A stretch of 64,000 nucleotides of DNA from Oscillospiraceae bacterium (GTDB lineage: Bacteria > Bacillota > Clostridia > Oscillospirales > Ruminococcaceae), in contig JAJQGT010000006.1 of assembly GCA_021201135.1 (NCBI GenBank), positions 685,548 through 749,547 of the forward strand, read 5' to 3'. How positions within the stretch are numbered: position 1 is the stretch's first letter; each line of letters starts with the position of its first letter. The notes below the pieces were generated by a model that did no database searches, was not told where the DNA came from, and was given only the letters and a program-made list of their open reading frames with translations. This document shows, in pieces, positions 13,518-29,336 of this stretch. The translations under genes were made by a program, and so were the position numbers.

Positions 13518-15082
13518 GATTGGCTCTCCTTCCATTCGGCATACTGCCTGTTTGCCTCGGCGATTATGTCTTCTATGCCAGCTTCTTCGAGTGTTGTGCG
13601 ATATTCTGACAGATATTCTTCAAAAGTCATGTCACTATAACCATACATATTGTCACCATATTGTATTGTTACAGCACCTACATCGATACATTGCTGATAT
13701 ACCGATGAATCATCAAACACAAAGTCAAAATCTTCACTTATGTAAGCACTCTCAAGAGAATTCAGATATGTTTCTCCGATATATAAAGTTTCATATTCTG
13801 TAGGAATACACAATAGCAGGTTTGCAAATTGAGCCTTGGCATAAAAATATAAATCCTTATTCATCTTATCGCTTTCAAGGATATTGTCTTCCCAGTAAGC
13901 ATAGCACATACGATTATTGAGTTCTTCATCGGTAAGCATAGTTGCTATGAAATCAAAAGCCATGTCCTGATATTCGCTCGTTTTACTGATTCCTAAAGCA
14001 TAGTCATTTCTGATAAGAGAAATACTTTCGTCATAAGAAGCATATACAGACACATATTCCCGTTCATAGGTAACAGGGTCATTACCATACGGGAGAGCAA
14101 ACGTGTCGCCTTCAACAGGCGGCAGATACACGGGTATTTCATATGCAAAGAAGCTTGAATCGGAGCGTGAACTTACCAATCCTTCCTGATTAAGCTTAAA
14201 CATGGTTTTAAGAAAAGTTATAAAATCATTGTTATCAAGCCAACTCTTTGCGGTCTTTTCTTCGTCATCCCAATAAACGCCTCTTGTCAACACCTGAGAA
14301 TCAAGGTAATACGAAGTATAGAAAGTCGAGCCGGAAACAATTGCCGACACCGACTCATCAGCATTTATTATCTCAAGTAAGTCGAGCTGTTCTGTCAGAT
14401 CCTTGTTTAAATCATACCCGTATTTATCAGCTAAATCCACATTTATGTAGAAACACTTCTGATAGTTGATTGAACTATTACAGTTAATGCCGTAGACAGT
14501 GCCATTATATCTGAGCGATTTCCACAGATTATCAGGCATCATCGAATATAAAGTTTGTCCGACTTCAGTGTTCTCAAGATAGTCGTCAAGTGACACGAGC
14601 AAATCGTCTCTTATGCAGTAATAATATTTATCGGTGCTTATTATGTCTACCTGTTCTCCGCTTTCAATCAGTGCCCAAAGCCCGCTATAGTAATCTACGC
14701 TTCCGGAATAACTGCAATAATCGCTATATATGACATTCATATCTATCAAGCGAAAATAAACAACATAATCTTTGCCAAGTTCAACCAGATACTCATTGAC
14801 CGCATCTGTTATGTCATTGTATCCATTGCTTCCTATGCATGCGATTACAAGTACAGTTTTATCAGGGTATTTATCCACAACATCAGCGTAGGAATATAAT
14901 GTTTGGGATTCGCTATTGACCACATATTGCGTAGTTTCAGATTCCGCAACATCAGTTTGCTCTCCATATTCTCCTTTTGCCAAACTTGTCGAAGTGCCTT
15001 CTGTATTTAAAGTGTTACCACAGGCAGTAAATGAGGTTACAAAAACAATAAAGGTAAGTACTAAAGAAAATAACTTTTTCAT
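13514..15082 (-). CDS. Solute-binding-like lipoprotein (subtype A)
   Basis: Lipoprotein of about 522 residues, lipobox Cys21 (SFTAC), start ATG 15082 just behind GGAGAG. The body resembles family 1 extracellular solute-binding proteins, with YPDKTVLVIACIG near the start, DDYLENTEVGQTLYSMMP in the middle and EEAGIEDIIAEANRQYAEW at the end. It is closely similar to its neighbours, including at DNA level near the gene junctions, so it arose by tandem duplication. It overlaps genes on both sides by 4 bp. No sugar-type ABC permease lies nearby, so transport of a nutrient is doubtful; capture of a peptide or cell-envelope ligand is an inference. Confidence 0.75.
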   Translation of the reverse strand: MKKLFSLVLTFIVFVTSFTACGNTLNTEGTSTSLAKGEYGEQTDVAESETTQYVVNSESQTLYSYADVVDKYPDKTVLVIACIGSNGYNDITDAVNEYLVELGKDYVVYFRLIDMNVIYSDYCSYSGSVDYYSGLWALIESGEQVDIISTDKYYYCIRDDLLVSLDDYLENTEVGQTLYSMMPDNLWKSLRYNGTVYGINCNSSINYQKCFYINVDLADKYGYDLNKDLTEQLDLLEIINADESVSAIVSGSTFYTSYYLDSQVLTRGVYWDDEEKTAKSWLDNNDFITFLKTMFKLNQEGLVSSRSDSSFFAYEIPVYLPPVEGDTFALPYGNDPVTYEREYVSVYASYDESISLIRNDYALGISKTSEYQDMAFDFIATMLTDEELNNRMCYAYWEDNILESDKMNKDLYFYAKAQFANLLLCIPTEYETLYIGETYLNSLESAYISEDFDFVFDDSSVYQQCIDVGAVTIQYGDNMYGYSDMTFEEYLSEYRTTLEEAGIEDIIAEANRQYAEWKESQS

Positions 15083-16719
15083 GATTGGCTCTCCTTCCAT
15101 TCGGCATACTGTCTGTTCGCTTCGGCGATTATGTCGTTTATACCGGCTTCTTCAAGAAGCGCACGGAAATCGGAGATATACTCGTCAAAATCGGTGTATT
15201 CCGTGAGGCGGTTGTATGTCATCTCACCCATCACGCCGAGGACATCCAAACACTGCTGATATACTTCGCTGTCGTCAAACACGAAGTCGAAGTCTTCGTT
15301 GACATATGCTTCTTCGAGGGATGTCTTGTATACTTCGGCGATATTTGATGGTTGCCGGGTTGTAGGAATGTTCAGCAAAAGATTTGCAAACTGTTCATAT
15401 GAGAAGTAGTATGCAGAACTGCTGATTCTCCCATCGCTGTACATTTCCGATTCATAATCGGCGTAACACATACGCTTATTTAGTTCCTCGTCTGTGAGCA
15501 TGGTTGCGATGAAATCAAATGCCATGTCCTGATTTTCACTGGTGTTGCTTACTCCGAGAGCATAGCAGAAGGTCATATCTCTTGTGAGGACCGGCTGTGA
15601 ATCGTCATACACCGCATATACCTGCTTATAAATCGGTTCACCGGTTTCGATGTCGGTATCCGCCCAGTGGTTGAAGAGCTCGCCACTTTCCGGCGGATAT
15701 TCTACTATACAATCAAGGGCAAAGTATGATGTGGTGTAGGCTGTCGTCAACAAGTCTTCACTATAGAGGGTAAACGCCGTCTTCAAAGTGGAGATATAAT
15801 CCTCGTCATCAAGCCAGCTTATAGCAGTTTTGCTTTCTGAGTCCCAATATACTCCCGAAGTCAGCTCGGTTTTGTCGTAACTGGTATCGACAAGCAGTGA
15901 CGAAAATGACGAGTAAACGGCTTTGCTCACGCTTTCGCTTTGGATAGTCTCAAGCAAGTCTGTCTGTTCGGTGAATGATTTTGAAAAGTCATAACCGTAT
16001 TCGTCAGCCAATGCGGCATCTATATAATATAGATGAGTGTACTTTATGGAGCCGTTGCAGTTGATTCCATAGATGGCGCCGTTATACCTGTATGCTCGCC
16101 AGAGATTTTCCGGCATCATCGAATAGAGAGTTTGCCCGACTTCGGTATTTTCGAGATAATCATCAAGCGGCAAAAGCAAATCGTCTCTTATGGCGTAATA
16201 ATAATTTGCGGTGCTGATGATGTCAATCTGTGTTCCGCTGTCTACTTTTGCCTTCAGATCGCTGTACCAGTCACTGAGCCCGACAGTCGAGCAATAATCG
16301 CTGTAGACCGCATTGGTTTCGGTGAACTCAAAGCATATGACATAATCCTTGCCAAGATCATTCAGATACTCGTTGACCGCTTCGGTTATATAGCAATATC
16401 TGTTGCTACCGATACACGCTATAACAAGCACGGTTTTGTCGGGATATGCCGCCTGAACCTCCTCATATGTCTGGATGTCCGGCGATTTTGAGTATTGCAT
16501 GGTGCTCCCGTCTTCAAATTCTTCGTAGTACTGTATATAACCGTCATCGTCCATCCATGAGGTGATGTAATACTCGTGAGTGGTGGCTTCGGTGGTGGTC
16601 GTAACGGCTGTAGTAGTAGCCGCCGTTGTGGTTTCGCTTTCCTGCAAGGTTTTGCTTCCGCAACCGCAGAGGGAAAATGCGAGGGATGTGGCTAAGATAA
16701 GGGATAGTAGTTTTTTCAT
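15079..16719 (-). CDS. Solute-binding-like lipoprotein (subtype A)
   Basis: Lipoprotein of 546 residues with lipid-anchor Cys20 (SLCGC). A Thr-rich spacer is followed by the EYYITSW segment and a family 1 solute-binding fold (AAYPDKTVLVIACIG, DDYLENTEVGQTLYSMMP). It ends in EEAGINDIIAEANRQYAEW, the same closing motif as the other members. The gene directly upstream encodes a separate propeller-like lipoprotein ending in ELIGEE, so this pair has the same order as the two domains fused in the 10878-13517 gene. Four-bp overlaps on both sides indicate coupled translation. Confidence 0.75.
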   Translation of the reverse strand: MKKLLSLILATSLAFSLCGCGSKTLQESETTTAATTTAVTTTTEATTHEYYITSWMDDDGYIQYYEEFEDGSTMQYSKSPDIQTYEEVQAAYPDKTVLVIACIGSNRYCYITEAVNEYLNDLGKDYVICFEFTETNAVYSDYCSTVGLSDWYSDLKAKVDSGTQIDIISTANYYYAIRDDLLLPLDDYLENTEVGQTLYSMMPENLWRAYRYNGAIYGINCNGSIKYTHLYYIDAALADEYGYDFSKSFTEQTDLLETIQSESVSKAVYSSFSSLLVDTSYDKTELTSGVYWDSESKTAISWLDDEDYISTLKTAFTLYSEDLLTTAYTTSYFALDCIVEYPPESGELFNHWADTDIETGEPIYKQVYAVYDDSQPVLTRDMTFCYALGVSNTSENQDMAFDFIATMLTDEELNKRMCYADYESEMYSDGRISSSAYYFSYEQFANLLLNIPTTRQPSNIAEVYKTSLEEAYVNEDFDFVFDDSEVYQQCLDVLGVMGEMTYNRLTEYTDFDEYISDFRALLEEAGINDIIAEANRQYAEWKESQS

Positions 16720-17798
16720 GATGTTGTCTCCTCTCCTATCAGTTCACTTGCTTCGAGCTTGATAAATTCATTGCTCAGTGAGTCTTTCAGGATATATGCC
16801 CCGTCAAGATAATACTCGACATTGTATCCGGTTTCAAGTGGGAGCTTTGACTCGTAGTGTGTGCCTGTTTCAAGGTCAATTATCAGTCCATAGTATAGGT
16901 GAAAAGCGTAGCCGTTGCATACCTGAAGTGCAACTTTGTTTCCGATGTCATACTCTTCCCCGTTCGGAGTTCTGATTATAGCTTCTGTCAGGTCGTCGTT
17001 ATAGACTATAAGATAGCCGTCCAACGCTTTCCAGACCGCTTCGTCATTTTCGGCAAGTTCTCCTGTGGACAAATCGAACTTGTAATATTCCGCAACTGAT
17101 TCAGGAAATATATAATCATTATACAGTGCGTCAAGTTCTTCATTGGTCAGTTCGTGGTCATAGTAAGAATAGCTTATATAGACGATGCCGTTTGCTTCGC
17201 CCTTGATGCTCGCACCGGCGTTATAGCCTTCGCCTATTTTTACTTTCTCGTTGAACTTGCCGGTATCAAAGTCATATGAAATCAAAGAAACACTCACATA
17301 ATCTTCAGTAGTGCCGTAATCGTTGAAGGTCGTCTGCTTTGCGGTCATATAGATTTTGTTTCCAACAACGAGAGCCGGATTATAGTCTGCGATTTCCCAG
17401 CCGGAAAAGGTTTCAAGGGCAATGCGGTTTGTGCCGTCAATGTCGCAACGATAGGCAGTAATTGTCTCGGCATAGGTGCCGTTTGTGTATTTTATATCAT
17501 CTGAGAAGTAGTACATCTTACCATCAAATACAGTCGGATAACAGGAGAGCCCATAGGACGAACAGGTGCTACTATCAGTATGAGTGCAGTTTGGATAAGG
17601 GCAGACGATGGCTGATTGCATTGTCGTGAAATCGCAGTAGTTCAGCCTCGTATAGGAATCATAGTAGAACTCGCCGTTGTTGTAGATGTTTGTTTCAAGG
17701 CTTACCATGTGGGAAGCGGGATATTCGTCGGCTGATGAACTTTTGCAACCGCAGAGCATAATTACAAACACCAGAACCAATACAAATAATCTCTTCAT
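16716..17798 (-). CDS. Propeller-like lipoprotein with Cys/His motif
   Basis: Lipoprotein of 360 residues, lipobox Cys18 (LCGC). It lacks the solute-binding domain. Repeated short strands with pattern GxxYYF/IYxxA suggest a beta-propeller like DUF5050 lipoproteins. Near residue 55-75 it carries CPYPNCTHTDSSTC, a Cys-X4-Cys-X-His-X4-Cys pattern shared with the 373-residue protein and the fusion, which could hold a metal or disulfides. It ends at ELIGEETTS, right where the fusion protein joins its second domain. It overlaps both neighbours by 4 bp. Function unknown; acting with the solute-binding lipoprotein is a strong guess from the fusion. Confidence 0.7.
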   Translation of the reverse strand: MKRLFVLVLVFVIMLCGCKSSSADEYPASHMVSLETNIYNNGEFYYDSYTRLNYCDFTTMQSAIVCPYPNCTHTDSSTCSSYGLSCYPTVFDGKMYYFSDDIKYTNGTYAETITAYRCDIDGTNRIALETFSGWEIADYNPALVVGNKIYMTAKQTTFNDYGTTEDYVSVSLISYDFDTGKFNEKVKIGEGYNAGASIKGEANGIVYISYSYYDHELTNEELDALYNDYIFPESVAEYYKFDLSTGELAENDEAVWKALDGYLIVYNDDLTEAIIRTPNGEEYDIGNKVALQVCNGYAFHLYYGLIIDLETGTHYESKLPLETGYNVEYYLDGAYILKDSLSNEFIKLEASELIGEETTS

Positions 17799-18916
17799 GC
17801 TATCTCCTCTCCTATAAGTTCACTTTCCTCAACTTTCATATACCCATCATCCTGCCTGATGATATAGCTACCGTCAAGATACCAGACGACCCAGCCGTCA
17901 TAGTCGCTGACGCTGTATCTCTTGCCGGTCTTGAGGTTGATGCACTCACGGTCAGTGCCGCCGGAGAAAAGCATGTCGTTCACCACGCTATAGGTTGACA
18001 TTCCAAGCGGGGTGAAGTTTTCGTAAATGCTCTCGTTGCCCTTGGAGTCGAAAACAGTCACGGCGGTGCCGGAAATAGTGATGAAGTAGTCGCTGTCAAC
18101 AACGAAGTTGTCATAGCTGTCGTCGGAGCCGGGCATATCCCAGTTTACAAAGCTTTCTGAGGCGATGTCATAGCAACAGTAATGATTCTCATAAAGAGCC
18201 GTGAACTCGTCCCAGTGCTCCGTCATATAGTCGAAGTCCTCCCACTTCTCATCCCAAGGCTCATCAAGGGCGTTTTCTGTCAGGTAGATTTTGCCGTTAT
18301 ATTCGCCGTAAATTGTCACCCCGCCGTCATAGCCGGAGTCGAGCTCTCCCAAGCAATAAAAGCTCTCGGTGGAATAGTCAAGCCGATAGAGATAGAAAGT
18401 CTCGTTGCCAGTGGCGATAAAGTTGACTGCATCAAACTCCGATTCCGTGCCGACAAAATATAGCGAATTTCCGACCAGAAGTGCCTTTTCCGAATGGTAA
18501 AGCTCGATATTCTCAGCGGTCGTGACCTTGCGGCGGTTGGAGCCGTCTATGGAAGCCGAATAGGCAACAAGATTATTTTGCGGCAAGCCGTCGCTGTTCG
18601 TGATTGTCTCCTGCACGAAGTAGTAAAGCCCGCCGTTCACTGCCACAGGGTGGTTGACAATGCCATAGGCTGTGCATTCGTCCGGGTCATTATGAAGGCA
18701 GTTCGGCTTTGAGCAGATATATGTGTAAGCCATGGTAGTGAAGTCGATATACATAAGCTTCTCGCCGTCCTCGTAAAACTCGCCGTTGTTATATAGGTTC
18801 GAGAAGACATAAACCGCCGACGACTCCTCATATCCGTCAAGAGTCTCCGTTGTAACCCTGCTCCCGCAGGAAGTAAGCATCAGCACCGCCAATAATACCG
18901 CTAAAATTTTAATCAT
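17795..18916 (-). CDS. Propeller-like lipoprotein with Cys/His motif
   Basis: Lipoprotein of 373 residues, lipobox Cys17 (LTSC). It is a paralogue of the 360-residue neighbour: the same NNGEFY start of the mature part, CSKPNCLHNDPDEC in place of the Cys/His motif and the same ELIGEE end. The protein is acidic and rich in Tyr, with repeated strand segments, consistent with an extracytoplasmic propeller. The gene overlaps the upstream solute-binding gene by 8 bp and the downstream gene by 4 bp. Two propeller genes in a row between two groups of solute-binding genes point to block duplication. Confidence 0.7.
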   Translation of the reverse strand: MIKILAVLLAVLMLTSCGSRVTTETLDGYEESSAVYVFSNLYNNGEFYEDGEKLMYIDFTTMAYTYICSKPNCLHNDPDECTAYGIVNHPVAVNGGLYYFVQETITNSDGLPQNNLVAYSASIDGSNRRKVTTAENIELYHSEKALLVGNSLYFVGTESEFDAVNFIATGNETFYLYRLDYSTESFYCLGELDSGYDGGVTIYGEYNGKIYLTENALDEPWDEKWEDFDYMTEHWDEFTALYENHYCCYDIASESFVNWDMPGSDDSYDNFVVDSDYFITISGTAVTVFDSKGNESIYENFTPLGMSTYSVVNDMLFSGGTDRECINLKTGKRYSVSDYDGWVVWYLDGSYIIRQDDGYMKVEESELIGEEIA

Positions 18917-20504
18917 AGTTGTTTGCCCTCCATTCCGAATATTGCCTGTTTATCTCTTCTAAAAGCTCATCAATCCCCGCTTCTTCAAGCTCGGATTTCA
19001 GGGCGGCGAGGTCTGCTTCGAATGTAGAATAGCCCAGATACGAGTGATTTTGAACTGCAAGTTTGACTGCCTGATACAATTCTTCATATCCTCGAACGTC
19101 AAAGGCGAAGCCGACGGCTTCACTTGCATCTGCCGGTTGGGCGTTTTCCAGAATTTCTGCAAATAATTCGTTCATATTTTCAGGCATATCGCCGTGGGAA
19201 TCGGTTATCAGCGGATTGGCGAAGCGGTAATTTATCAGATATGGCTCATCTTCACTGTCACCAAATGAGAGAAGATTGTTGAGGGTGCTGTCGGTCTGAC
19301 TGAGGAGGATAAAGTCAAAAGCTTCAGATTTGTGCTCCGAGCCGGAATAGATGCTCACGCCGCCGGAGGAGGATGAGGTGTAGGTAAAGCTTGTATTATC
19401 GGCAACGGTGGTGAAATCGGAACAGGTGTCGTCGCCGGTTTCAAACTGGGTCTGTCCGCCTGTGAAGGACTTTCCCAAGTTGAGGGAATAGGTGCTTGTC
19501 GATGTGCCATAGCTTGCGAGATACATTCCGCTGTAATTCTCCGCATCGTCAAATATTAGCCCTCTATCTTTGAGTTCATACCAGAGCTCAAGGCTTTCAG
19601 AGAAGCTATCGCTGTCAGCGAGACTGACAATTCCGTCATCGTAGGAAGCACCAATTATTCCCGCAAAAACAAACTCCTTGTAAAGGCTCGAATAATTGAC
19701 CTTGACTCCACGGCAGTTTTCTTCGGTCATAATGGTCTCTATGAGATCAAGCTGTTCAAACATCGATTTGTCGTAGTCCCAGTCGTACTTGTCGGCAAGC
19801 TCGGTGTTGATGAGATAGTAGTTCGCGGCGGTTCTTCTCGCTCCGAGACTGAAGCCGCCAAAGCTGTAGAGAGTGCCGTTCACCTTGAAGGATTCCCAAT
19901 ATTCTTCCGGAAGCGAGCTGTAATACTCTGTCGCCTCGTCAGAACTTTCAAAGTAGCTTTCAAGCGGCTCATAGATTCCGTTCAAAGCATTGTAATAATA
20001 AGCTGTGATAATCGGCTCATCGGAGCTTGCTACCATAACCGTCAGAACGTCCGCTTGCCCGCCGGAATCTATATATTCCGTGAAGCAGTCGAGCATCGAG
20101 TCATAGTCTCCATTATCATACTTAATTGTTGCCGCAGTCATGTTTAAGGGATAGTAGCAGAGGGCATATTCCTTGCCGATGGAGTCAAGATACTCGTTGA
20201 TTTCATCTATAGGAATCTCAATTTCGAGACTGCTGTCAGCCGTCAGAGCAAATCCGACCCATACGAGAACTGTTTTATCGGGATATTCGGCTTGAACTTC
20301 TTCGGCGGTCTTGTAGGAATAGAGGGTGAACGCAGAATAGAGAGCATCGTTGTCAATCTCGCTGGTTTCGCCGGTGGTCTGTTCGGTTGTGGAAGCTATT
20401 GTAGCCACCGTTGTGGTTTTGCTTTCCTGCAAAGTTTCGCTTCCGCAACCGCAAAAAGAAAACGCAAGCGATGCGGCTAAGATAAGAGACAGTAATTTTT
20501 TCAT
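18909..20504 (-). CDS. Solute-binding-like lipoprotein (subtype B)
   Basis: Lipoprotein of about 531 residues, lipid-anchor Cys20 (SFCGC), start ATG 20504 behind a GGAGAG site. It belongs to a second subtype together with the 555-residue neighbour: AEYPDKTVLVWVGFAL, IDEINEYLDSIGKEY and YYSSLPEEYWESF replace the subtype A equivalents, and the end is EEAGIDELLEEINRQYSEW. The solute-binding fold call is from overall similarity to family 1 proteins. Ligand unknown. It overlaps its upstream gene by 4 bp. Different subtypes side by side suggest that the array binds more than one ligand or ligand variant. Confidence 0.73.
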   Translation of the reverse strand: MKKLLSLILAASLAFSFCGCGSETLQESKTTTVATIASTTEQTTGETSEIDNDALYSAFTLYSYKTAEEVQAEYPDKTVLVWVGFALTADSSLEIEIPIDEINEYLDSIGKEYALCYYPLNMTAATIKYDNGDYDSMLDCFTEYIDSGGQADVLTVMVASSDEPIITAYYYNALNGIYEPLESYFESSDEATEYYSSLPEEYWESFKVNGTLYSFGGFSLGARRTAANYYLINTELADKYDWDYDKSMFEQLDLIETIMTEENCRGVKVNYSSLYKEFVFAGIIGASYDDGIVSLADSDSFSESLELWYELKDRGLIFDDAENYSGMYLASYGTSTSTYSLNLGKSFTGGQTQFETGDDTCSDFTTVADNTSFTYTSSSSGGVSIYSGSEHKSEAFDFILLSQTDSTLNNLLSFGDSEDEPYLINYRFANPLITDSHGDMPENMNELFAEILENAQPADASEAVGFAFDVRGYEELYQAVKLAVQNHSYLGYSTFEADLAALKSELEEAGIDELLEEINRQYSEWRANNYD

Positions 20505-22168
20505 GAGTAGCTCTCCCTCCATTCCGAATACTGTCTGTTTATCTCCTCCAGAAGCTCATCAATCCCTGCTTCCTCAAGCTCGGATTTCAGGGCGGCGAGG
20601 TCTTCTTCGACCGATGAATAGCCTACATATGAGTGGTTCCAGGCGGCTCTTTCCACAGCCGCATTGAGCTCTTCATAGCCTCTGACATCAAATGCAAAGC
20701 CTATTGCTTCGCTCTCATCGGCGGGTGAAGCTGTTTCAAGAATTTCCTTGCAAAGCTCGTTCATATCCTCTGGCATATCTCCCGAGCTGTCGGAGTATGG
20801 CAGGCTTATAAGCGGGTTATAGAACCTGAACATGTTGAGCACCGGGCGAGCATCCGACACGACACCATCGACGATATTATAGTCCTCGCCCTCTATACCA
20901 TAGGTCAGAAGATTATTTAAGTATGAATCCGTCTGGCTGAGAAGTATAAAATCGAACGCCTCGGATTTGTATTCAGAGCCGGAATATATCCCGATTCCGT
21001 CCAAAGCCTGAGTATAGTGGTAATCGGACATCGGCACAACTGTGTAATCAGCGGTGTTGTCTTTTGAATCGACTATCTTCTGAATATGAGACCTTATTTC
21101 AAACCTCAGCGGATTAATATAAATGAAGCAATCGTCAAGCCCAACGATGTCGTAATTTTCGAGGACACCTGCGTTTTTCAACTCATACATCATTTCGAGA
21201 TACGCTTCCAATTTTTCGCTGTATGCAAGGCTTACCGCAACTCCGTTTTCACTGTCGAAGGAAATGCCGTCCATATAAATGAAACGGTCGATACAGTATG
21301 CCGAAGAATAGCCGGCTGAAACTCCCGCACAGCCTTCCGTCTGCATTACCTCTTTAATAATATCAAGCTGTTCGGTTATAGTCTTGTCAAAATCCCAACC
21401 GTATTTTTCGGCAAGCTCGGTATTGATATAGTAGTAGCAATCTGCTCTTACGCCGACTTCATATCCGCCGAAATTGTAAAGAACACCGTTCACCCGGAAT
21501 GAATCCCAATATTCTTCCGGCAGCGAGTTATAATACGCCATAGCTTCCTCTGAGCTTTCAAAATAGCTGTCAAGGGGTTCATAGATTCCGTCATAGATGT
21601 TGCTGAAGTAAGCGTTGATAAGCCCGTTTTCCGAAGTGCATGTACAGCGTGCGAGTATATCAACCTGTTCACTCGATTCAAGCTGTTCTATATACGCATC
21701 TCTTGCATCGTCATAGTAGAGCGTGGCGTTATAAAAGTCAACCGGCGAAAAGCAGATGACGTAATCCTTACCGAAAGAAACAAGATAGTCGTTGATAGTA
21801 TCGATGGGTATGAGCCTTGTATCTTCTGCGGGATAATCATAACCCTGCCAGACCAGAACCGTCTTGTCGGGATACTTCGCCTGAATTTCGTCTGCCGATT
21901 CATAGTAATTAGGGTAGTATTTATGTCTGTAGATATTTGTGCTGTGTCCGTTTACATAGGTCTCCTCTACTATCAATACGCCGTTTTCCTCTGTCCACGA
22001 AGTGACGTAATATTCTTCTTCGCTTTCGGGAACGGTCGTGACGGCAGAAGTCGTAGCCGCCGTTGTGGTTTCGCTTTCCTGCGGGAGGTCTTCGGACTGC
22101 CTTCCGCAGGAAGTGAAAACCGTCAGGCAGAGTGTGATTGTGAGAATTATGGATAGTAATCTCTTCAT
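20501..22168 (-). CDS. Solute-binding-like lipoprotein (subtype B), first gene of the array
   Basis: Lipoprotein of 555 residues, lipobox Cys21 (VFTSC), with the Thr-rich spacer and EYYVTSW segment seen in subtype A and in the fusion, then the subtype B body (YYNSLPEEYWDSF) and the end ELEEAGIDELLEEINRQY. It is the first gene of the nine-gene chain of overlapping genes running to 8111. The recombinase terminator lies upstream at 22230-22268, so a promoter is expected in 22169-22229. I see only a TATTAT-like -10 there with no clear -35, which suggests a weak or activated promoter. Confidence 0.73.
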   Translation of the reverse strand: MKRLLSIILTITLCLTVFTSCGRQSEDLPQESETTTAATTSAVTTVPESEEEYYVTSWTEENGVLIVEETYVNGHSTNIYRHKYYPNYYESADEIQAKYPDKTVLVWQGYDYPAEDTRLIPIDTINDYLVSFGKDYVICFSPVDFYNATLYYDDARDAYIEQLESSEQVDILARCTCTSENGLINAYFSNIYDGIYEPLDSYFESSEEAMAYYNSLPEEYWDSFRVNGVLYNFGGYEVGVRADCYYYINTELAEKYGWDFDKTITEQLDIIKEVMQTEGCAGVSAGYSSAYCIDRFIYMDGISFDSENGVAVSLAYSEKLEAYLEMMYELKNAGVLENYDIVGLDDCFIYINPLRFEIRSHIQKIVDSKDNTADYTVVPMSDYHYTQALDGIGIYSGSEYKSEAFDFILLSQTDSYLNNLLTYGIEGEDYNIVDGVVSDARPVLNMFRFYNPLISLPYSDSSGDMPEDMNELCKEILETASPADESEAIGFAFDVRGYEELNAAVERAAWNHSYVGYSSVEEDLAALKSELEEAGIDELLEEINRQYSEWRESYS

Positions 22169-22281: not shown

Positions 22282-23865
22282 TCATTCCGCCGATATCTCC
22301 GTCAGCTCCTCCCCTTTCCACTCGATATCGACCTGCCATTTGTCGTAGATTATGACCTTCTCAACGAAAGTTTCCGCCATTTTGCAGGTGAGCCGGGTTT
22401 CGTTCCCGAAGAGCCTGACGTTTTCCATCAGGACATCGAGCTCGGGCTTACGGCGGTTGCGAAGGGCTCGGGTCCGGGACTCTCTTTCGTGAACAGCGGC
22501 GAGTGCCGACCTGATCGAGTCCGACTCTTCGGACAGCTTTTTCTTTTCCAATGCAAGACCTTCGCGAGAGATTTCGCCCGAGGCATACGACTCATAGAGG
22601 GCAAGCTTCTGCGATTCGATATTGCCAAGCTCAGCTTGGAGCTCTGCGGCTTCCTCTCCGAGAAGCTCAAGGCACTCAATGCGGTTTCGCTCGGCTTCTT
22701 CGGCTTTGCCGCAGGCGACCTCAAGAAGCTTCATCCACTGCCTCAGGCGGCGGAAAACCAGCTCGTTCAGGAGCTCCTCGGAGAATCGGTCATCGGGACA
22801 GCCGGAGCTCAAGCCGGTTTGCCCGGAATGGGAGCACCGGAAGAAGCACTCGTCATAGACGTTTTCTTTATACGCCATCGCATAGCCGCAGTTGCCGCAG
22901 AAAACCTTGGATTTGAGCTGATAGCGGCGGCTTTCGGGCGACTTCTTTCTTCTCCCCGTGAAGATTTTCTGAGCCTCGGCGAAGGTCCCGGCGCTGACAA
23001 TCGCAGGGTGATTATCGGGGATTTTCTTTGGACTGTCGATGGCAACGCTCTTCTTTGAGCCGGCGACCACGCACCTTCTCTTCTGCAGGATATAGGTGCC
23101 GGTGTAGACCTCGTTTTTGAGAATCTGCATCACCTTCGTGCCCGTCCAGGCGGCAAAATCGCTCTTTTCGGAGGAGCACGCTTTGCCCTTTATGCGGTGT
23201 TCACGGTTATAGGTCGCAACCGTCGGGACGTTCTCGCGGTTGAGGATTTTCGCAATCTCACCAGTCGTCCGGTCTTCACATGCAAGCGTGAAGATAAGCC
23301 GGACCGTCGCCGCGGCTTCATCATCAATAAGAACCTTCCCGGGGTGCTCCTCGTCCTTCAGATAGCCGAACGGCACGCCGAAGAAGAACTCGCCGTTTTC
23401 ACGCTTGACATCGAAGGCCGAAACGACCTTGAGGGACAAATCCCGGGAATAATAGGAATTGACGATGTTTTTCATCGCGAAGTCGATTCCGCAGTCGTCC
23501 TGCCGACCGCTGTCGTAACTGTCCGTAACGGAGATGAATCGCGTCCCGAGGAAGGGGAAAAGCTTCTCGATATAGTCGGCGCACTCGACATAGTTCCGTC
23601 CGAAACGGGAGAAGTCCTTGACGATAACCGTATCAACCGTCCGCTTTTTGATTAGCCCGAGCATCCGCTGAAATGCAGGTCTTTCGAAGTTGGTGCCGCT
23701 GTAGCCGTCGTCGATGAACTCCTCGACGTCCTCGTTCCTGAGATCGGGCATTTCCGAGAGATAGTCGGACAAAAGCCTACGCTGATTTTCGACGCTGTTG
23801 CTGAGCTGTTTCCGTTCGTCCAGATCGTCGTCAAGGCGGGAAAGTCGGATATAAAACGCAATCAT
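22282..23865 (-). CDS. Large serine recombinase 1
   Basis: Site-specific recombinase of 527 residues. The N-terminal resolvase domain has the catalytic Ser in YIRLSRLD and the Arg motif KDFSRFGRNY; a recombinase domain follows. A zinc ribbon begins FCGNCGYAM at about 320, with the usual coiled-coil insertion after it (about 370-440). Such enzymes integrate and excise transposons or phages by a Ser-linked double-strand break. It starts inside the stop of the next recombinase gene (4-bp overlap). It is the last gene of a four-gene unit ended by a terminator. Confidence 0.93.
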   Translation of the reverse strand: MIAFYIRLSRLDDDLDERKQLSNSVENQRRLLSDYLSEMPDLRNEDVEEFIDDGYSGTNFERPAFQRMLGLIKKRTVDTVIVKDFSRFGRNYVECADYIEKLFPFLGTRFISVTDSYDSGRQDDCGIDFAMKNIVNSYYSRDLSLKVVSAFDVKRENGEFFFGVPFGYLKDEEHPGKVLIDDEAAATVRLIFTLACEDRTTGEIAKILNRENVPTVATYNREHRIKGKACSSEKSDFAAWTGTKVMQILKNEVYTGTYILQKRRCVVAGSKKSVAIDSPKKIPDNHPAIVSAGTFAEAQKIFTGRRKKSPESRRYQLKSKVFCGNCGYAMAYKENVYDECFFRCSHSGQTGLSSGCPDDRFSEELLNELVFRRLRQWMKLLEVACGKAEEAERNRIECLELLGEEAAELQAELGNIESQKLALYESYASGEISREGLALEKKKLSEESDSIRSALAAVHERESRTRALRNRRKPELDVLMENVRLFGNETRLTCKMAETFVEKVIIYDKWQVDIEWKGEELTEISAE

Positions 23866-25295
23866 CGCTCTTCCTCCCTGAACTTAATCGCAAAGGTTCC
23901 GTCGACACTATAGCTGACCTTTTCGACAAATTCCGACAAAAGCTCCTTCGTCAAGCCCTTCCTGAGGAGCCTTTCAATCGCATTTGTCTCGTCAGTTTCG
24001 AGAATTTCGACGCTCGAGGTATCGCTCAGACGGATAATCCCGACCGTTTCGGCGGGGATTTTCTCAATATGAACATTGCCTTTGGAAAGATGCCTTCTCA
24101 GTTCGTTCAGAACGTACTTATAAACCCTCTGCTCGGGGATGCTCGAAACCTTCACGGCGCAGGGCGGAGCGGCAGGGTCTGTCTTGCGATAGTCATTGTA
24201 GCCGCCGCAACGGTAGCGGAAATTGCGAATTGCCGGGGTGTTGCCTGCTCTGTCATATTGCATCGCGCGACCGCAGTTTCCGCAGAAGAAGATGCCGCCG
24301 AGGACATTCGGGAACCTTTCCGAGCGGATTGCGCCCTTTCGGAGGGCTTCAGCCTTCTGCCTGCTCCTCTCCCTCATTTCCCGGGAAATCTCCTCGAAAA
24401 CATCCGCATCAACAAGCGGCTCGTGGGTGTTCGGGATGACGGCATAGTCGCCCTTGCCGGTTGTGTTGTAGACGGTTGCGCCGGTGAAGGTGCGGTTTTC
24501 GAGGAGCTTCTGGACGCTGATGTGGTCCCACTTGTCGGAGCATTTTACATTCAGGTACTTGCCCCGGGATTTGCGGTATTCAAGCGGCGTCGGCGCACCG
24601 ATTTCGTTGAGACGGTCGGCGATTGCCGTCAAACCTAAGCCTTCGGCTTTCAGCCTGAATATAAGCCTGACATAATCCGAGGTGTTTGGGTCGGGAAGAA
24701 GGTGATAGTTGCACCCGGGGTCGACCATATAGCCGTATGGCACCGACCAGAACGGGCGCTCTCCCGCTTTTTCCTTCGCTCTGAAAACAGCAAGAATCTT
24801 ACGCTGTGTTTCCCGGGCGTACATTTCGTTAATCATGTTCTTAAGCGGCAGAATAAGGCTGTCCGAGTCGTCCTCGTTCAGGCTGTCAAAGCCGTCGTTC
24901 ACGGAAATAAAGCGTATGCCGAGCTCGGGAAAAATCGTCTCGAGGTAATAGCCCGCCTCGATGTGATTTCTGCCGAACCTCGACAGGTCCTTGACAAGAA
25001 CACAGTTGATTCTGCCGTCACGAATGTCCTCCATCATCCGTCTGAACTGGGCACGGTCGAAGCTCAGACCGCTCCTGCCGTTGTCTGAGTAAATATTCAC
25101 AAGGCTGAGGTCCGGGTGAACCGATATGTACGATTCGAGATACTTTATCTGGTTTGTGATTGAACGGTCGTCCTCGAAGCCATTGTTTTCGTCTGAAAGT
25201 CGGGCATAGATTGCCGTGTTCCAGATGCGTTTTTTCTTCCGTTCAAGATATTTCTCGGTCGATTTCGGGATCCTGTTTCGTCTGCTCATCTTCAT
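23862..25295 (-). CDS. Large serine recombinase 2
   Basis: Site-specific recombinase of 477 residues with the catalytic Ser in AIYARLSDEN and the Arg motif KDLSRFGRNH, a recombinase domain and a zinc ribbon beginning FCGNCGRAM. The coiled-coil region after the ribbon is short, making it the smallest of the three. It has a basic N-terminal extension (SRRNRIPKS) before the catalytic domain. It overlaps its neighbours by 4 bp on both sides. The three recombinases are clearly different from each other, so this is an old set, not a fresh duplication, and the members may act together. Confidence 0.92.
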   Translation of the reverse strand: MKMSRRNRIPKSTEKYLERKKKRIWNTAIYARLSDENNGFEDDRSITNQIKYLESYISVHPDLSLVNIYSDNGRSGLSFDRAQFRRMMEDIRDGRINCVLVKDLSRFGRNHIEAGYYLETIFPELGIRFISVNDGFDSLNEDDSDSLILPLKNMINEMYARETQRKILAVFRAKEKAGERPFWSVPYGYMVDPGCNYHLLPDPNTSDYVRLIFRLKAEGLGLTAIADRLNEIGAPTPLEYRKSRGKYLNVKCSDKWDHISVQKLLENRTFTGATVYNTTGKGDYAVIPNTHEPLVDADVFEEISREMRERSRQKAEALRKGAIRSERFPNVLGGIFFCGNCGRAMQYDRAGNTPAIRNFRYRCGGYNDYRKTDPAAPPCAVKVSSIPEQRVYKYVLNELRRHLSKGNVHIEKIPAETVGIIRLSDTSSVEILETDETNAIERLLRKGLTKELLSEFVEKVSYSVDGTFAIKFREEER

Positions 25296-25765
25296 GCCTT
25301 CTTTCCATATAAAGTACTTCTGTATTCGCGGGTTCTGGCTTTCAGATAAGCATCTACGTCGCCGACACCGGTGTCGAAATCCGCCTCAACATCAATAAAG
25401 CCTATCCCGCAGGGGATGAAATACTCGCGAATCAGGGTTGCGAGCCCCGAAATGCTCGGGGCGACGGTGCGTGTGGCATAGATTACAATAGTTTCTATCG
25501 CTGAGGTTTCGGTGTCCCTAAGAAGCCTTTGCCATGCGTCGTTGCCGGTGGCGCTCAGGGGCGTGCGCCTGCCGTTGTGCTCGGGGACTCTGACAACTCT
25601 GACATCATCGTCCCGGTAAATCCGCATGAGCTTCAGCTCTTCCCGCCTATTGAGATATTTCCTACATTCCGCAAGAGCCCGCTCGGTGTCAATCGCTTCG
25701 CCGTAAGCGGCGGGAGCAAGATAGATCGCGGCTTTATATTGCGGCTTCAAGTCCAGATTCTTCAT
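25292..25765 (-). CDS. Degenerate resolvase-domain protein (catalytically dead)
   Basis: Protein of 157 residues that lines up along its length with the N-terminal domain of recombinase 3: KAAIYLAPAAYG for the catalytic strand, then RKYLNRREEL, AWQRLLRDTE, ETIVIYATRTVAPS and GIGFIDVEADFDT for the later elements. The catalytic Ser (RLS) is replaced by LAP/AA and the Arg cluster SRFGRN by TRTVAPS, so it cannot cut DNA. It has no DNA-binding domain. A good AAGGAGG site precedes ATG 25765, inside the end of recombinase 3 (32-bp overlap). A role as dimer partner or directionality factor is my inference. Confidence 0.75.
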   Translation of the reverse strand: MKNLDLKPQYKAAIYLAPAAYGEAIDTERALAECRKYLNRREELKLMRIYRDDDVRVVRVPEHNGRRTPLSATGNDAWQRLLRDTETSAIETIVIYATRTVAPSISGLATLIREYFIPCGIGFIDVEADFDTGVGDVDAYLKARTREYRSTLYGKKA

Positions 25766-27374
25766 ACTTCGCCGCCTCCTTTCTTGCCCTGATTGCGCTG
25801 TCGTGGCGGAACCTGATGTCCATATGCCCGCCTATTCCGACATAGACCTTGTCGACAAGCTCGCACATGACTTTTCTTTGGAGCGTGTCAATATCCCTGT
25901 ACTTTTTGAAGCTCTCAAGCCAACTTGCATCGGCAATTTCCGAAACAAGGCGGCTTCGCTTTTTGGAGACGGCTCTACTGTCCTGCTTCGCCCGCTCGAT
26001 TTTGTCCGTATAAAGCTTCGAATAATCCATATACTCGCTTCGGGTCAGGACTCCTGCGGAATAGTCGCCGAAAAGATGGTCTTTGAGCCGCCCGCACCTG
26101 TCCATCTCCTCCTCAAGGGACAAGAGCTCCCTGTCAAGGCTTTTCACCTCTTCCGAGTCCTCAGGCAAAAAGTCGAGATGCTCGATATCGTAAGCCGAAA
26201 GCGCCATCTGGCGGATTACCCGCAATAGCCCGGCGGTTGCCTTCTTCTCGCTGATTCGAACGGAGCTCCTTCCCGCCCTTTCGCAGTCCTTGCATTTATA
26301 ATAGCGATAGATTTTGTCGCCGCGATAAGTGGATTTGATGGTCATCTGTCTGCCACATACGTCACAGAATAAAAAGCCGGAGAGCGTTGCCGCACACTCT
26401 CCGCCGGTCGTCTTGATTTCTCTTTGCATTATCTCCTGCACCTGCTCGAACAGGTTCGGCTCAACTATCGCCTCGTGGGTTCCCGCGACTCTCGTCCACT
26501 CGTCCTTCGGGAGAAGCACCCTCTCGTCCGAGCGATAACTGAGCTTGCGGTACTTCCCCTGCACCAGCGTGCCGGTGTAGCACTCGTTGTGGAGGATGTT
26601 ATAGACGCTCCCCGCGCCCCAGAGCGCCTTGGGGTTCCGCTTGAAGTTGCCGCTGACATGCACGCCTCGCTCCGTCTGATATTCATAAGGCGAAAGTATG
26701 CCGCTTTCGTTGAGGCGGTCGGCAATGGTGCGGTTGCCATAGCCCTCAAGCTTCCAGTCGAAAATCTGCCGAACCGTCGGGGCGGCGCTCTCATCCACAA
26801 TCAGCCTTGAACGGTCTTGGGGGCTTTTCTTGTAGCCGTACGGGACAAAGGACATCACGCACTCTCCCCGCTTTCGCATTGCGGAAAGCTGTGTCGTGAT
26901 TTTTCGGGAGATTTCACGGCAGTAGTAGTCGTTGATAAGGTTCTTCATCGGAACCGTCAGAAGGTCCGCACTGCGCTTTTCCTCCGCCGTATCGAAGCCG
27001 TCGTTGATTGCTACGAGGCGCACTCCCATCGCCGGAAAAGTCATCTCGAGGTATCTGCCCACTTCGATATAGTTCCTTCCGAAACGGGATAAATCCTTAA
27101 CGAGAATGCAGTTGACAAGCCCACTCTCCAGGTCCCGATAAAGCCGTTTCCAAGACGGTCGGTCGAAGTTGGAGCCCGAGTAGCCGTCGTCTACATACTC
27201 GCCGACATACTTAAACTCGCCCCTGTCACGGATGTAGTCCTCGAGCAGCTTCCGCTGATTTGCGATAGAATCGCTCTCGCGTTTGTCGCCGTCCTCCTGC
27301 GACAGCCGGAGATACAGAGCCGTCCTATAAACGACCTTGGGGCTTTCATCTCCATAGTTGAATTTTTGTGCCAT
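25734..27374 (-). CDS. Large serine recombinase 3
   Basis: Site-specific recombinase of about 546 residues, first gene of the recombinase unit. I start at ATG 27374 (MAQKFNYGDE), 7 nt behind GAGGAG. The catalytic Ser is in ALYLRLSQED and the Arg motif is KDLSRFGRNY; the recombinase domain and a zinc ribbon (FCDVCGRQM) follow, then a coiled coil (about 400-470). All parts needed for strand exchange are present. The promoter at 27429-27457 gives a leader of about 50 nt. The attachment sites and extent of any mobile element are not evident in this window. Confidence 0.93.
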   Translation of the reverse strand: MAQKFNYGDESPKVVYRTALYLRLSQEDGDKRESDSIANQRKLLEDYIRDRGEFKYVGEYVDDGYSGSNFDRPSWKRLYRDLESGLVNCILVKDLSRFGRNYIEVGRYLEMTFPAMGVRLVAINDGFDTAEEKRSADLLTVPMKNLINDYYCREISRKITTQLSAMRKRGECVMSFVPYGYKKSPQDRSRLIVDESAAPTVRQIFDWKLEGYGNRTIADRLNESGILSPYEYQTERGVHVSGNFKRNPKALWGAGSVYNILHNECYTGTLVQGKYRKLSYRSDERVLLPKDEWTRVAGTHEAIVEPNLFEQVQEIMQREIKTTGGECAATLSGFLFCDVCGRQMTIKSTYRGDKIYRYYKCKDCERAGRSSVRISEKKATAGLLRVIRQMALSAYDIEHLDFLPEDSEEVKSLDRELLSLEEEMDRCGRLKDHLFGDYSAGVLTRSEYMDYSKLYTDKIERAKQDSRAVSKKRSRLVSEIADASWLESFKKYRDIDTLQRKVMCELVDKVYVGIGGHMDIRFRHDSAIRARKEAAKYEESGLEAAI

Positions 27375-27428
27375 TTTAATACTCCTCTCAGATAACAAGC
27401 TAATAATGTTCGCTTGCTTAATGCTTGG

Positions 27429-27457
27429 ATTTTAGCATAGGTGAGAGAGGTTTGCAA
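27429..27457 (-). promoter_or_regulatory. Promoter of the recombinase operon
   Basis: Minus-strand TTGCAA (27452-27457) and TAAAAT (27429-27434), spacing 17 bp, about 55 bp before the recombinase 3 start. Confidence 0.75.
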
Positions 27458-27474
27458 CTTTTGGTTTTTGGGCG

Positions 27475-27517
27475 AAAAAAAGCCCGGCGGTGATTTGTAA
27501 AAAAGCACCTGCCGGGG
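27475..27517 (-). terminator. Intrinsic terminator after the DUF3990 module
   Basis: On the minus strand, CCCGGCaGGTG pairs with CACCGCCGGG (one bulge) and is followed by a run of seven T. It ends the three-gene module before the recombinase promoter. Confidence 0.75.
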
Positions 27518-27529
27518 ATATTTTATATA

Positions 27530-27739
27530 TTACTGTTTCTTGGATTTTTCCTGACAGAACAGCCCGAAGATGAATAACGCTGACTGTCCGTATAAGCCCG
27601 TATCGGAATCGGACAAGGATTCCGCTGTTCCGGAAGTATAGAACTCATCCATCGCCTCTTCTTCCGAAATGTTGTATTTCTCCGAAATCATCCGGATAAT
27701 TTCCGGAATAAGCGTTGCCCTTATTGTAGCATGTGCCAT
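27530..27739 (-). CDS. DUF3791-like small protein
   Basis: Protein of 69 residues. I start at ATG 27739 (MAHATIRATL), since the track's upstream extension overlaps the preceding gene. It contains PEIIRMISEKYNISEEEAMDEF and a short DSDTGLYGQS segment, like small DUF3791-type proteins of gut Clostridia. These are often found beside DUF3990 genes. It is the last gene of the module, 4 nt behind the DUF3990 gene. A role as antitoxin or partner of the DUF3990 protein is inferred from context only. Confidence 0.6.
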   Translation of the reverse strand: MAHATIRATLIPEIIRMISEKYNISEEEAMDEFYTSGTAESLSDSDTGLYGQSALFIFGLFCQEKSKKQ

Positions 27740-27743
27740 AGTT

Positions 27744-28238
27744 CTACACCTCCACAATGTAGCTTTCCACAAACGTTAATTCAGCCAGAGATGCCTCTGT
27801 GCAGAATGCTATCTGGTTGTTGATTTTTTCGAATTTCAGACGCTCAACCGCATCCTCTTTTCTCATAATTCCCTGGACGACATAGGACACGGTCTCGCCG
27901 ACATTATCGTTTGCAATCTTTCCGATAACAATGTCGTATCCATGCGTATAATTCACATTGCTCCTACATTGCACAACTATATCCAGCCAATCCAATGAAG
28001 CTTCATTGAAAATCTTTTCTTTCAAAGTATTGCTTTCGCTCCACTCGTATATATTTACGACAGCCTGTTCTCTTTTGCCGCTATTGCGCGACAGAATTTT
28101 TGCACGCCTGATTGCCCATCGTTCAGCTTGTTCCTTTATATCAGTGGTGTAAAATGCAAATCCAAAATCTCTGCCGATTTCACTTGTGACAATTTTCGGT
28201 TGCTGTATTTCCAAAGTTGTCCCGTGATACACTAACAT
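27744..28238 (-). CDS. DUF3990 protein (ADP-ribosyltransferase-like fold)
   Basis: Protein of 164 residues beginning MLVYHGTTLEIQQPKI, followed by GRDFGFAFYTTDIKEQAERWA. These are the hallmarks of DUF3990, which belongs to the ADP-ribosyltransferase-like superfamily (H/YHGT near the start, the FYTT strand next). The later part (EASLDWLDIVV, YDIVIGKIANDNV) is also typical. It sits between two small DUF3791-like genes, overlapping the upstream one by 7 bp. I infer a toxin-like or protein/nucleic-acid-modifying enzyme guarded by small partners. No activity has been shown for this copy. Confidence 0.8.
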   Translation of the reverse strand: MLVYHGTTLEIQQPKIVTSEIGRDFGFAFYTTDIKEQAERWAIRRAKILSRNSGKREQAVVNIYEWSESNTLKEKIFNEASLDWLDIVVQCRSNVNYTHGYDIVIGKIANDNVGETVSYVVQGIMRKEDAVERLKFEKINNQIAFCTEASLAELTFVESYIVEV

Positions 28239-28435
28239 TTGCGATTGCCTCCCAGATACTGATCGATAAGCTGCATCATATACTCCATGCTCATGCCATG
28301 AAGGTCGTCATAATCGTCGCGAAGCATGTCGAGAACCTTTTCTTTCTTGAATAACTCATACACTTTTTCACTCGGCTGATTTGTATGCTCTGCGTAATAC
28401 TCAACACAGAATGACACAAACGACAATTTGCTCAT
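28232..28435 (-). CDS. DUF3791 small protein
   Basis: Protein of 67 residues matching the DUF3791 pattern: FVSFCVEYYAEHTNQPSEKV, then a DDYDDLHGMS segment and MQLIDQYLGG. It is helical and without membrane segments. First gene of the module; its stop overlaps the start of the DUF3990 gene, so the two are made together. The promoter is not clear; an AT-rich stretch at 28440-28500 may hold it. Antitoxin-like role is inferred. Confidence 0.75.
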   Translation of the reverse strand: MSKLSFVSFCVEYYAEHTNQPSEKVYELFKKEKVLDMLRDDYDDLHGMSMEYMMQLIDQYLGGNRKC

Positions 28436-28554
28436 TCGATCACCTCCAAGATAACATCATACTATTCTTATAGCTTACCACAAAACCACGCATAAATCAA
28501 GCTTTCTTTCGGCTTTCAGCTTTTTGGTTTGCAACTTTCCCGCCAAATTGTCCC

Positions 28555-28583
28555 TTGACGATTCGGGAAAATACTACTATAAT
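28555..28583 (+). promoter_or_regulatory. Promoter of the thioesterase gene
   Basis: TTGACG (28555-28560) and TATAAT (28578-28583), spacing 17 bp, about 30 bp before the start codon. Confidence 0.85.
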
Positions 28584-28613: not shown

Positions 28614-29336
28614 ATGTACCGGATGAAGGGTGAAATCAGATTCAGTGAGACGGACGAGCAGGGGCGGCTCAAGCTTGGGAGCCTTATGAACTATATGCAG
28701 GACTGCGTTATGCTTCACTGCGAATCGTTGGGAGTCGGGCTCGAATATCTGCACGCCAACCACAGGCTCTGGCTTCTTTCGAGCTGGCAGGTGGTGCTTT
28801 TAGACTGTCCGAAGCTCTATGACGAAATCACCGTCGAGACGAGACCCTATGAGTTCTCGAACTGCTATGGGCACCGCAACTTTATCGTTTCCGACAAGAG
28901 TGGCAAAACGCTTGTCAAGGCAAATTCAATCTGGGTTTATGTCAACACCGAAACCGGCAGACCGGCGAGACCTCCGGAGGAGGAGAAAGCCGCCTACAGT
29001 CTGGACGAGAGAATTGAGATGGACTATGCCCCGAGAAAGCTGAGCTTGCCGGACGACATGACTCCGGTTGTTCCGATTCCCGTAAGAGCGGATGATATCG
29101 ACCTCAATCACCACGTCAACAACGCCCGTTATATCGAGATTGCCCTTGGACTCATGCCGGACATTTCCGACATCCACGAGCTCAGGGTCGAATACAAGCG
29201 TCAGGCGCACCTCGGCGACACTATCTATCCGAAGATTGCGACTGTTGATGGCAGTTGCTATGTGGATTTAGCTGACGCGGACGGGAAGACTTATACTTCC
29301 GTGCAGGTTATAGGAAACCCCTCCACCACCGGCTAA
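28614..29336 (+). CDS. Acyl-ACP thioesterase
   Basis: Thioesterase of 240 residues that releases fatty acids from acyl carrier protein. Start ATG 28614 follows GGAGGGG by 6 nt. It has the double hotdog fold of the FatA/FatB-type bacterial family: IRFSETDEQGRLKLGSLMNY in the first half, and ADDIDLNHHVNNARYIE in the second with the catalytic Asn/His region. Length is typical. The last seven residues (NPSTTG and the preceding Gly) and the stop codon come from an inserted repeat element (29313-29461), so the original C-terminus has been replaced. It is a single-gene unit with its own promoter. Confidence 0.9.
   Translation: MYRMKGEIRFSETDEQGRLKLGSLMNYMQDCVMLHCESLGVGLEYLHANHRLWLLSSWQVVLLDCPKLYDEITVETRPYEFSNCYGHRNFIVSDKSGKTLVKANSIWVYVNTETGRPARPPEEEKAAYSLDERIEMDYAPRKLSLPDDMTPVVPIPVRADDIDLNHHVNNARYIEIALGLMPDISDIHELRVEYKRQAHLGDTIYPKIATVDGSCYVDLADADGKTYTSVQVIGNPSTTG

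Follow-up and report, generated by a model that had tools for sequence, protein, structure and literature searches.

Introduction

The locus described here raises the question of why a gene for a catalytically dead serine-recombinase homologue should be kept inside an operon of three recombinases that look intact and active. We know of no settled answer as to why three large serine recombinases (LSRs) should occur together on some mobile islands, or as to how such sets are controlled, and the gene, here termed fam, would offer a concrete, small and testable control component inside an LSR-triplet operon. The window, meaning the whole stretch of DNA that was analysed, comprises 64,000 nucleotides of contig JAJQGT010000006.1 from an Oscillospiraceae bacterium.

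An operon of three recombinases and fam

Four genes on the minus strand, in the order rec3-fam-rec2-rec1, make up the operon. The first, rec3 (25734..27398), is listed with a TTG start, but an ATG at 27374 is likelier; rec2 (23862..25295) follows fam, and rec1 (22282..23865) comes last. Each of the three encodes an LSR with Resolvase, Recombinase and zinc-ribbon domains (Pfam), and each has kept its catalytic residues, including the Arg and Ser residues of rec3, where R31, S33, R80, R105 and R108 mark catalytic positions that are invariant among rec1-3 and seven further recombinases. Judged by these residues, rec1-3 appear to be active, intact LSRs. They also match the models for CcrA, CcrB and CcrC, far below cut-off.

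The fam gene itself (25292..25765, minus strand) starts with ATG and encodes a protein of 157 residues that corresponds to the N-terminal domain only. An AAGGAGG ribosome-binding site (25775..25781, minus strand) lies 9 nt 5′ of this ATG, and the arrangement AAGGAGG-N9-ATG occurs a single time in the whole window, at fam. The gene shares 4 bp (25292-25295) with rec2 and 32 bp (25734-25765) with rec3, and, given these overlaps, fam is presumably co-translated with the neighbouring recombinases. An earlier note on this DNA had described an intact gene with a good ribosome site and 4-bp and 32-bp overlaps, and the open reading frame, the AAGGAGG and both overlaps were all confirmed. The absence of a DNA-binding part, which it had also remarked on, holds as well: the 157-aa chain stops inside helix E and leaves no room for a DNA-binding domain, and the recombinase domain, zinc ribbon and coiled coil of LSRs are all missing.

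Fold and descent of fam

Family libraries do not recognise the protein. None of 13 fam members had a Pfam match above cut-off, Resolvase (PF00239) included, and searches of Pfam, NCBIfam and PHROGs returned nothing significant. The family profile is more informative. A single fam sequence matches the TP901-1 integrase with an E of 0.0016, and with the profile this integrase becomes the sole match among PDB sequences (E 1.1e-5); across many genomes the profile also picks up full-length LSRs (E 1e-6 to 1e-4), and its alignment to an LSR profile (hhalign) has a probability of 95 and an E of 4e-8. The AlphaFold (AF2) model of the window's fam has a pLDDT of 82.7, and that of a second, 57% identical member has a pLDDT of 80.9 and the same order of elements. 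When the window model was compared with the PDB by Foldseek, all 13 best matches were serine-recombinase chains, headed by the TP901-1 catalytic domain; matches among TP901-1/phiC31-type structures were 3bvp (E 1e-6), 9rah and 4bqq, and poxvirus OPG061 (F16 homologues) was also found among the fold matches.

These profiles and models place fam, by predicted fold and by descent, in the serine recombinase superfamily, with a resolvase-type N-terminal alpha/beta fold. The earlier claim that the product follows the resolvase fold is borne out by the agreement between profile searches and AlphaFold models, although pairwise BLASTP against rec3 scores a weak 27.7 bits, and structure prediction, set beforehand as a test, gave the fold of a serine-recombinase N-terminal domain. 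In a tree of catalytic domains, the fam copies form one clade (support 1.0) whose branch is very long, at 3.0 substitutions per site. Its placement beside rec3 has a support of 0.26, and descent from one particular recombinase was therefore dropped as a reading of the tree.

A lost active site with a conserved rim

Catalytic positions were scored at five sites in 15 fam members, using resolvase numbering. The equivalents of resolvase R8, R45, R68 and R71 are A17, N75, T100 and P103 in all 15, the equivalence of R45 and N75 being dependent on a gapped region of the alignment. At the position of Ser10, seven members have Ala, as does the window copy, and eight have Ser. The loss of both the catalytic Ser and the Arg cluster had been proposed from the window alone; the loss of Arg extends to every member, while the loss of Ser is true of the window copy and not of the eight members that keep it. 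As aligned, the family is therefore marked by a universal loss of Arg and a loss of Ser that is not universal, and fam would not be expected to act as a serine recombinase, for which a catalytic Ser and the Arg cluster are both required.

The best-conserved part of fam is the rim of the old active site, with the motifs YxAPxAYG, GNDAW, ARTVAPS and E-x-x-FD. Residues Y15, A17, G22, N75, Y96, T100, A102, P103 and D131 are invariant in all 15 members. A new invariant motif at this place would also suit a protein exapted outside recombination, perhaps with DNA ends, a nucleotide or a host protein as its ligand, and held in the operon by linkage, and there is a precedent in poxvirus F16, an inactivated serine recombinase whose role is described as unclear (PMC4304020). 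We regard such an exaptation as very improbable, in that fam was never found apart from the LSR triplet in the genomes searched, and was lost along with the triplet in the one genome (G006) described below.

The other end of the protein bears on how fam might meet a partner. Known serine recombinases dimerise via their final helix, and in LSRs this helix E joins the subunits and bears the DNA-binding domains. The final helix of fam, at the place of the long helix E, is about 16-17 residues long and polar, so that ordinary helix-E pairing is not obviously available to it. This has consequences for one conceivable role, that of a built-in inhibitor, or dominant-negative decoy, which would occupy the catalytic-domain interface of a recombinase, so that synapsis would depend on a sufficient amount of recombinase or on a signal, and the islands would remain stably integrated. 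A catalytic-domain fold without an active site or DNA-binding part, produced together with the recombinases from overlapping genes, is what such a decoy would look like. The helix that forms the dimer and tetramer interface is nonetheless shortened and polar in fam, and the conserved signature lies at the old active site and not at the interface helix. With the usual interface helix so reduced, we favour an inhibitor less and consider it unlikely.

Spread and selection

A profile search for similar open reading frames in other recombinase operons, as had been suggested, recovered 17 further copies of fam, in the window's own genus and in a small number of other lineages. Thirteen are from the genus, across nine other genomes, and the gene is present in 10 of the 31 genomes of the genus. 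The other four are L034 (= G320), L035, L036 and G1003, the last from another family of the same order. Outside the genus, profile searches of 398 family, 394 order and 391 class genomes gave isolated matches only, and no relatives were found in plasmids, phages or viral contigs.

All but one of the 17 further copies are intact as separate open reading frames, as are the fam genes at all ten primary-site loci and at nearly all other loci, and the order rec3-fam-rec2-rec1 is seen in every readable copy, wherever neighbours are present. Random frameshifts in the homologues, looked for as a preset test, were not the pattern found. Among three close loci, fam has pairwise dN/dS values of 0.16-0.26, against 0.08-0.16 for the recombinases; when every pair with dS < 2 is counted, the respective medians are 0.16 and about 0.13. 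Across 13 loci, 35 of about 157 positions are invariant. By these estimates, fam is under purifying selection close to the level of the recombinases.

Loss of the DNA-binding part and of catalytic residues, together with the lack of recognition by Pfam, might be expected of a functionless, decaying remnant of a fourth recombinase. The idea is scarcely credible, given ten intact loci out of ten at the primary site, the dN/dS values and the invariant positions. A decaying pseudogene was ruled out by intact frames and dN/dS, and simple decay can be taken as excluded on these selection and conservation data, taken from sequence comparison. The earlier view that the gene is not simply decaying has gained 17 further copies, selective constraint and an invariant rim signature of its own.

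Evolutionary distances of fam correlate with those of rec2 (r 0.91), rec1 (0.83) and rec3 (0.67), with 0.93 for rec2 against rec1 as a comparison; the weaker correlation with rec3 is attributed to an exchange of its C-terminal half between relatives. One locus, L027, has a natural in-frame rec3-fam fusion of 642 aa that is short of about 30 N-terminal fam residues, the first strand included, and it may be a decaying or degenerate allele. At another, L025 (G002:C11, 8503-11454), fam and rec1 are intact and rec3 and rec2 are broken. The window's own genome also holds a decayed second module, L131 (G000:C20, 7468-10393), with rec1 intact, rec2 truncated and no fam detected.

Variation among the recombinases

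The triplet varies around fam. A coiled-coil segment of about 95 residues has been lost from rec2 at loci adjoining a thioesterase gene, as was shown for the window, L017 and L020, and it is kept in L024, L026, L034, L036 and L082, so that rec2 of the window is without a segment that rec2 has at other fam loci; fam is present with both types of rec2. The C-terminal half of rec3 (residues about 300-554) also comes in two types, one in L019, L021 and L023 and the other in the rest, and fam, rec2 and rec1 are alike across loci that differ in this respect, a pattern that suggests domain exchange in rec3. Directly upstream of rec3, the second group of fam operons encodes a DUF6870 protein (L024 11896-12252 and L082 6444-6734, both on the minus strand), possibly a further accessory component of the module.

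In the tree of catalytic domains, rec3, rec2 and rec1 cluster with genes 1, 2 and 3, respectively, of sister LSR triplets from the same genus (L132, L133 and L134). In these sisters only 0-1 bp separates the first and second recombinase genes, which means that there is no fourth gene at that place, and since the sister triplets persist without fam, it is not universally required. A partner for fam was also sought in segment-wise conservation of rec1-3, and this approach was dropped: it singled out no surface, and in rec2 the pattern resembles that of sister triplets lacking fam.

This variation bears on a further possibility, namely that fam serves the triplet as its recombination directionality factor (RDF), permitting attL x attR excision and suppressing integration. 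Directionality factors are usually under separate regulation, and co-translation of fam with the recombinases offers no obvious switch, with no separate expression of fam visible. The RDFs of LSRs are very diverse and difficult to recognise (PMC5814800), and fam is suitably small, has no DNA-binding domain and is encoded alongside the recombinases. Against this, the proposed sites of action of known RDFs are the zinc domain and the coiled coil, with binding at the former or at the base of the latter (PMC5814800), and these are the most variable parts of rec1-3; in clade A the coiled coil of rec2 has been lost and the C-terminal half of rec3 exchanged, and the fam type is unchanged. Moreover, the sister triplets need no such factor at the place of fam. 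Because the proposed targets of known RDFs are variable recombinase parts and no separate expression is visible, the RDF role is less favoured, and we hold it to be about as improbable as that of an inhibitor.

Islands and att-like repeats

In ten genomes the operon lies beside one and the same chromosomal gene, for acyl-ACP thioesterase, at one end of variable islands of 19-54 kb. In the window the thioesterase gene (28614..29336, plus strand, with the promoter TTGACG-17-TATAAT at 28555-28583) is the first chromosomal gene past the island, and the synteny break falls just upstream of its promoter. Chromosomal synteny with nine other genomes ends at the outer copy (28526..28536, minus strand) of an att-like direct repeat, AGTTGCAAACC. 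The copy by rec3 (27449..27459, minus strand) overlaps the -35 box of the putative operon promoter, TTGCAA-17-TAAAAT (27429..27457, minus strand). Between the two repeats is a DUF3791/DUF3990 cassette of about 1.08 kb (27460..28525, minus strand); in G030 (L015) the cassette is absent and a single AGTTGCAAACC repeat is present, which suggests precise site-specific gain or loss of the cassette. Another sequence, CGTCAAGGGACA, was considered as an att core and ruled out, being the -35 region of the thioesterase promoter.

Past the operon, the cargo differs for each genome or small group, and includes glycosyltransferases, UDP-glucose dehydrogenase, tandem solute-binding proteins and AbiH. In the window, tandem genes resembling those for extracellular solute-binding proteins (8115-22168, minus strand), one with DUF3502, make up cargo whose copy number varies among relatives. 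The far end was mapped in G009, G027 and G006, where the islands measure about 54, 40 and 19 kb, respectively, and in all three shared sequence resumes exactly at CTTGCAAC. This far-end motif doubles as a promoter -35 box, which could alone account for its conservation. A second insertion hotspot was seen about 20 kb past the far end (G009, oriented, 80343-80369; G027, 67477-70701; G000, 78174), and in G000 the variable region extends to it, with the chromosomal stretch between missing. Together, the repeats and junctions look like site-specific recombination at TTGCAA-centred sites beside the operon, for which rec1-3 would be the performers, and these recombinases probably move gene islands in gut-type bacteria.

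G006 has the same island and flanks and is without the whole operon, fam included, deleted from window position 22353 to 27361 (compared with 15061-18846 of L127, the G006 locus). At the junction the tail of rec1 is joined to the start of rec3 with 2-3 bp of homology. An empty pre-insertion site was ruled out for this genome, as the rec3 start and rec1 tail remain and thus indicate an internal deletion.

A probable accessory subunit

The conservation of fam amid three intact recombinase genes means that it probably serves rec1-3, as a helper or control subunit. To the fuller reading, in which fam is a pseudo-recombinase and a selected fourth member of a three-LSR integration/excision module, likeliest as a non-catalytic accessory subunit, we give about an even chance. 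Its direct basis consists of the fold, the catalytic loss, the lack of a DNA-binding domain, the conservation, the purifying selection, the operon position and the association with islands. The same rim whose catalytic positions were lost is the best-conserved part of the protein, and gene order is strict across several lineages, among them a second family of the order. The close tracking of rec2 distances, the natural rec3-fam fusion and the loss of fam with all three recombinases in one deletion (G006) also speak for an accessory subunit. On the other hand, physical linkage alone predicts co-inheritance, there are sister triplets without fam, and at one locus (L025) fam is intact beside a broken rec3 and rec2. 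Likewise, the fusion is without the first fam strand and possibly decaying, and conservation of rec1-3 segments points to no partner surface. Of the earlier note's reading, the intact, selected and catalytically dead domain kept between two recombinases is thus borne out, whereas its pairing with active recombinases, and any setting of direction or block of synapsis, would be putative.

As an accessory subunit, fam would have arisen when the N-terminal, catalytic-fold domain of an LSR became a free-standing protein, with active site and DNA-binding part lost, and was then retained by selection in the three-LSR integration/excision module. Translated along with the recombinases from overlapping genes, it would attach to the catalytic domain of one recombinase, with the conserved rim of the old active site a likelier contact than helix E. 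At the att-like TTGCAA sites beside the operon, it could then influence how a mixed complex of recombinases assembles or is activated. That fam binds, which recombinase it binds and which way it acts are what we infer here. A stronger version, with a stable four-subunit machine in which the remodelled active-site cleft of the pseudo-recombinase binds, licenses or gates three active LSRs, is conceivable and somewhat less probable. Were gating to prove true, it would amount to pseudoenzyme-controlled serine recombination, with fam the first accessory factor to be identified for LSR triplets. As LSRs are in wide use for genome engineering, a natural LSR-gating protein would also be of practical interest.

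Comparison with known systems

LSR triplets are already known; no conserved dead fourth member of an LSR operon turned up in the open-licence literature or the family libraries searched. Dead serine recombinases in recombinase operons were likewise not found in that literature, in which only poxvirus F16 came up. The CcrA/B/C recombinases of SCCmec resemble the present system in that several LSR genes adjoin one fixed chromosomal site and the cargo varies, and differ from rec1-3 in family members, target and host; we know of no dead N-terminal-domain partner for them. With the large serine integrases of TP901-1 and phiC31, fam shares the catalytic-domain fold, but it does not have their catalytic Arg residues, long helix E or recombinase, zinc and coiled-coil domains. 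The RDFs of LSRs, such as phiC31 gp3 and A118 gp44, are similarly small, non-catalytic proteins of LSR-bearing elements and, to our knowledge, do not have the resolvase fold.

The closest arrangement is that of the serine integrase triplets of streptococcal integrative and conjugative elements (ICEs) (Ambroset et al. 2016, PMC4701971). There, as here, three adjacent LSR genes in the same orientation lie at one end of the island, the genes cluster by their position in the triplet, and there are very short direct repeats at the ends; rec1-3 are likewise three tandem LSRs that cluster by position. The streptococcal triplets differ in host, target site and cargo. They are also described as three genes, all with the catalytic Ser, and with no mention of a dead fourth gene (PMC4701971), whereas the intact operons of the present clade have one. 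Finally, poxvirus F16 (OPG061), reported to be an inactivated serine recombinase (Senkevich et al. 2011, via PMC4304020), is a dead serine-recombinase homologue retained in evolution, much like fam, albeit as a protein of a eukaryotic virus with no active recombinases associated. To this, fam would add a bacterial case, that of a likely pseudoenzyme partnering its active relatives.
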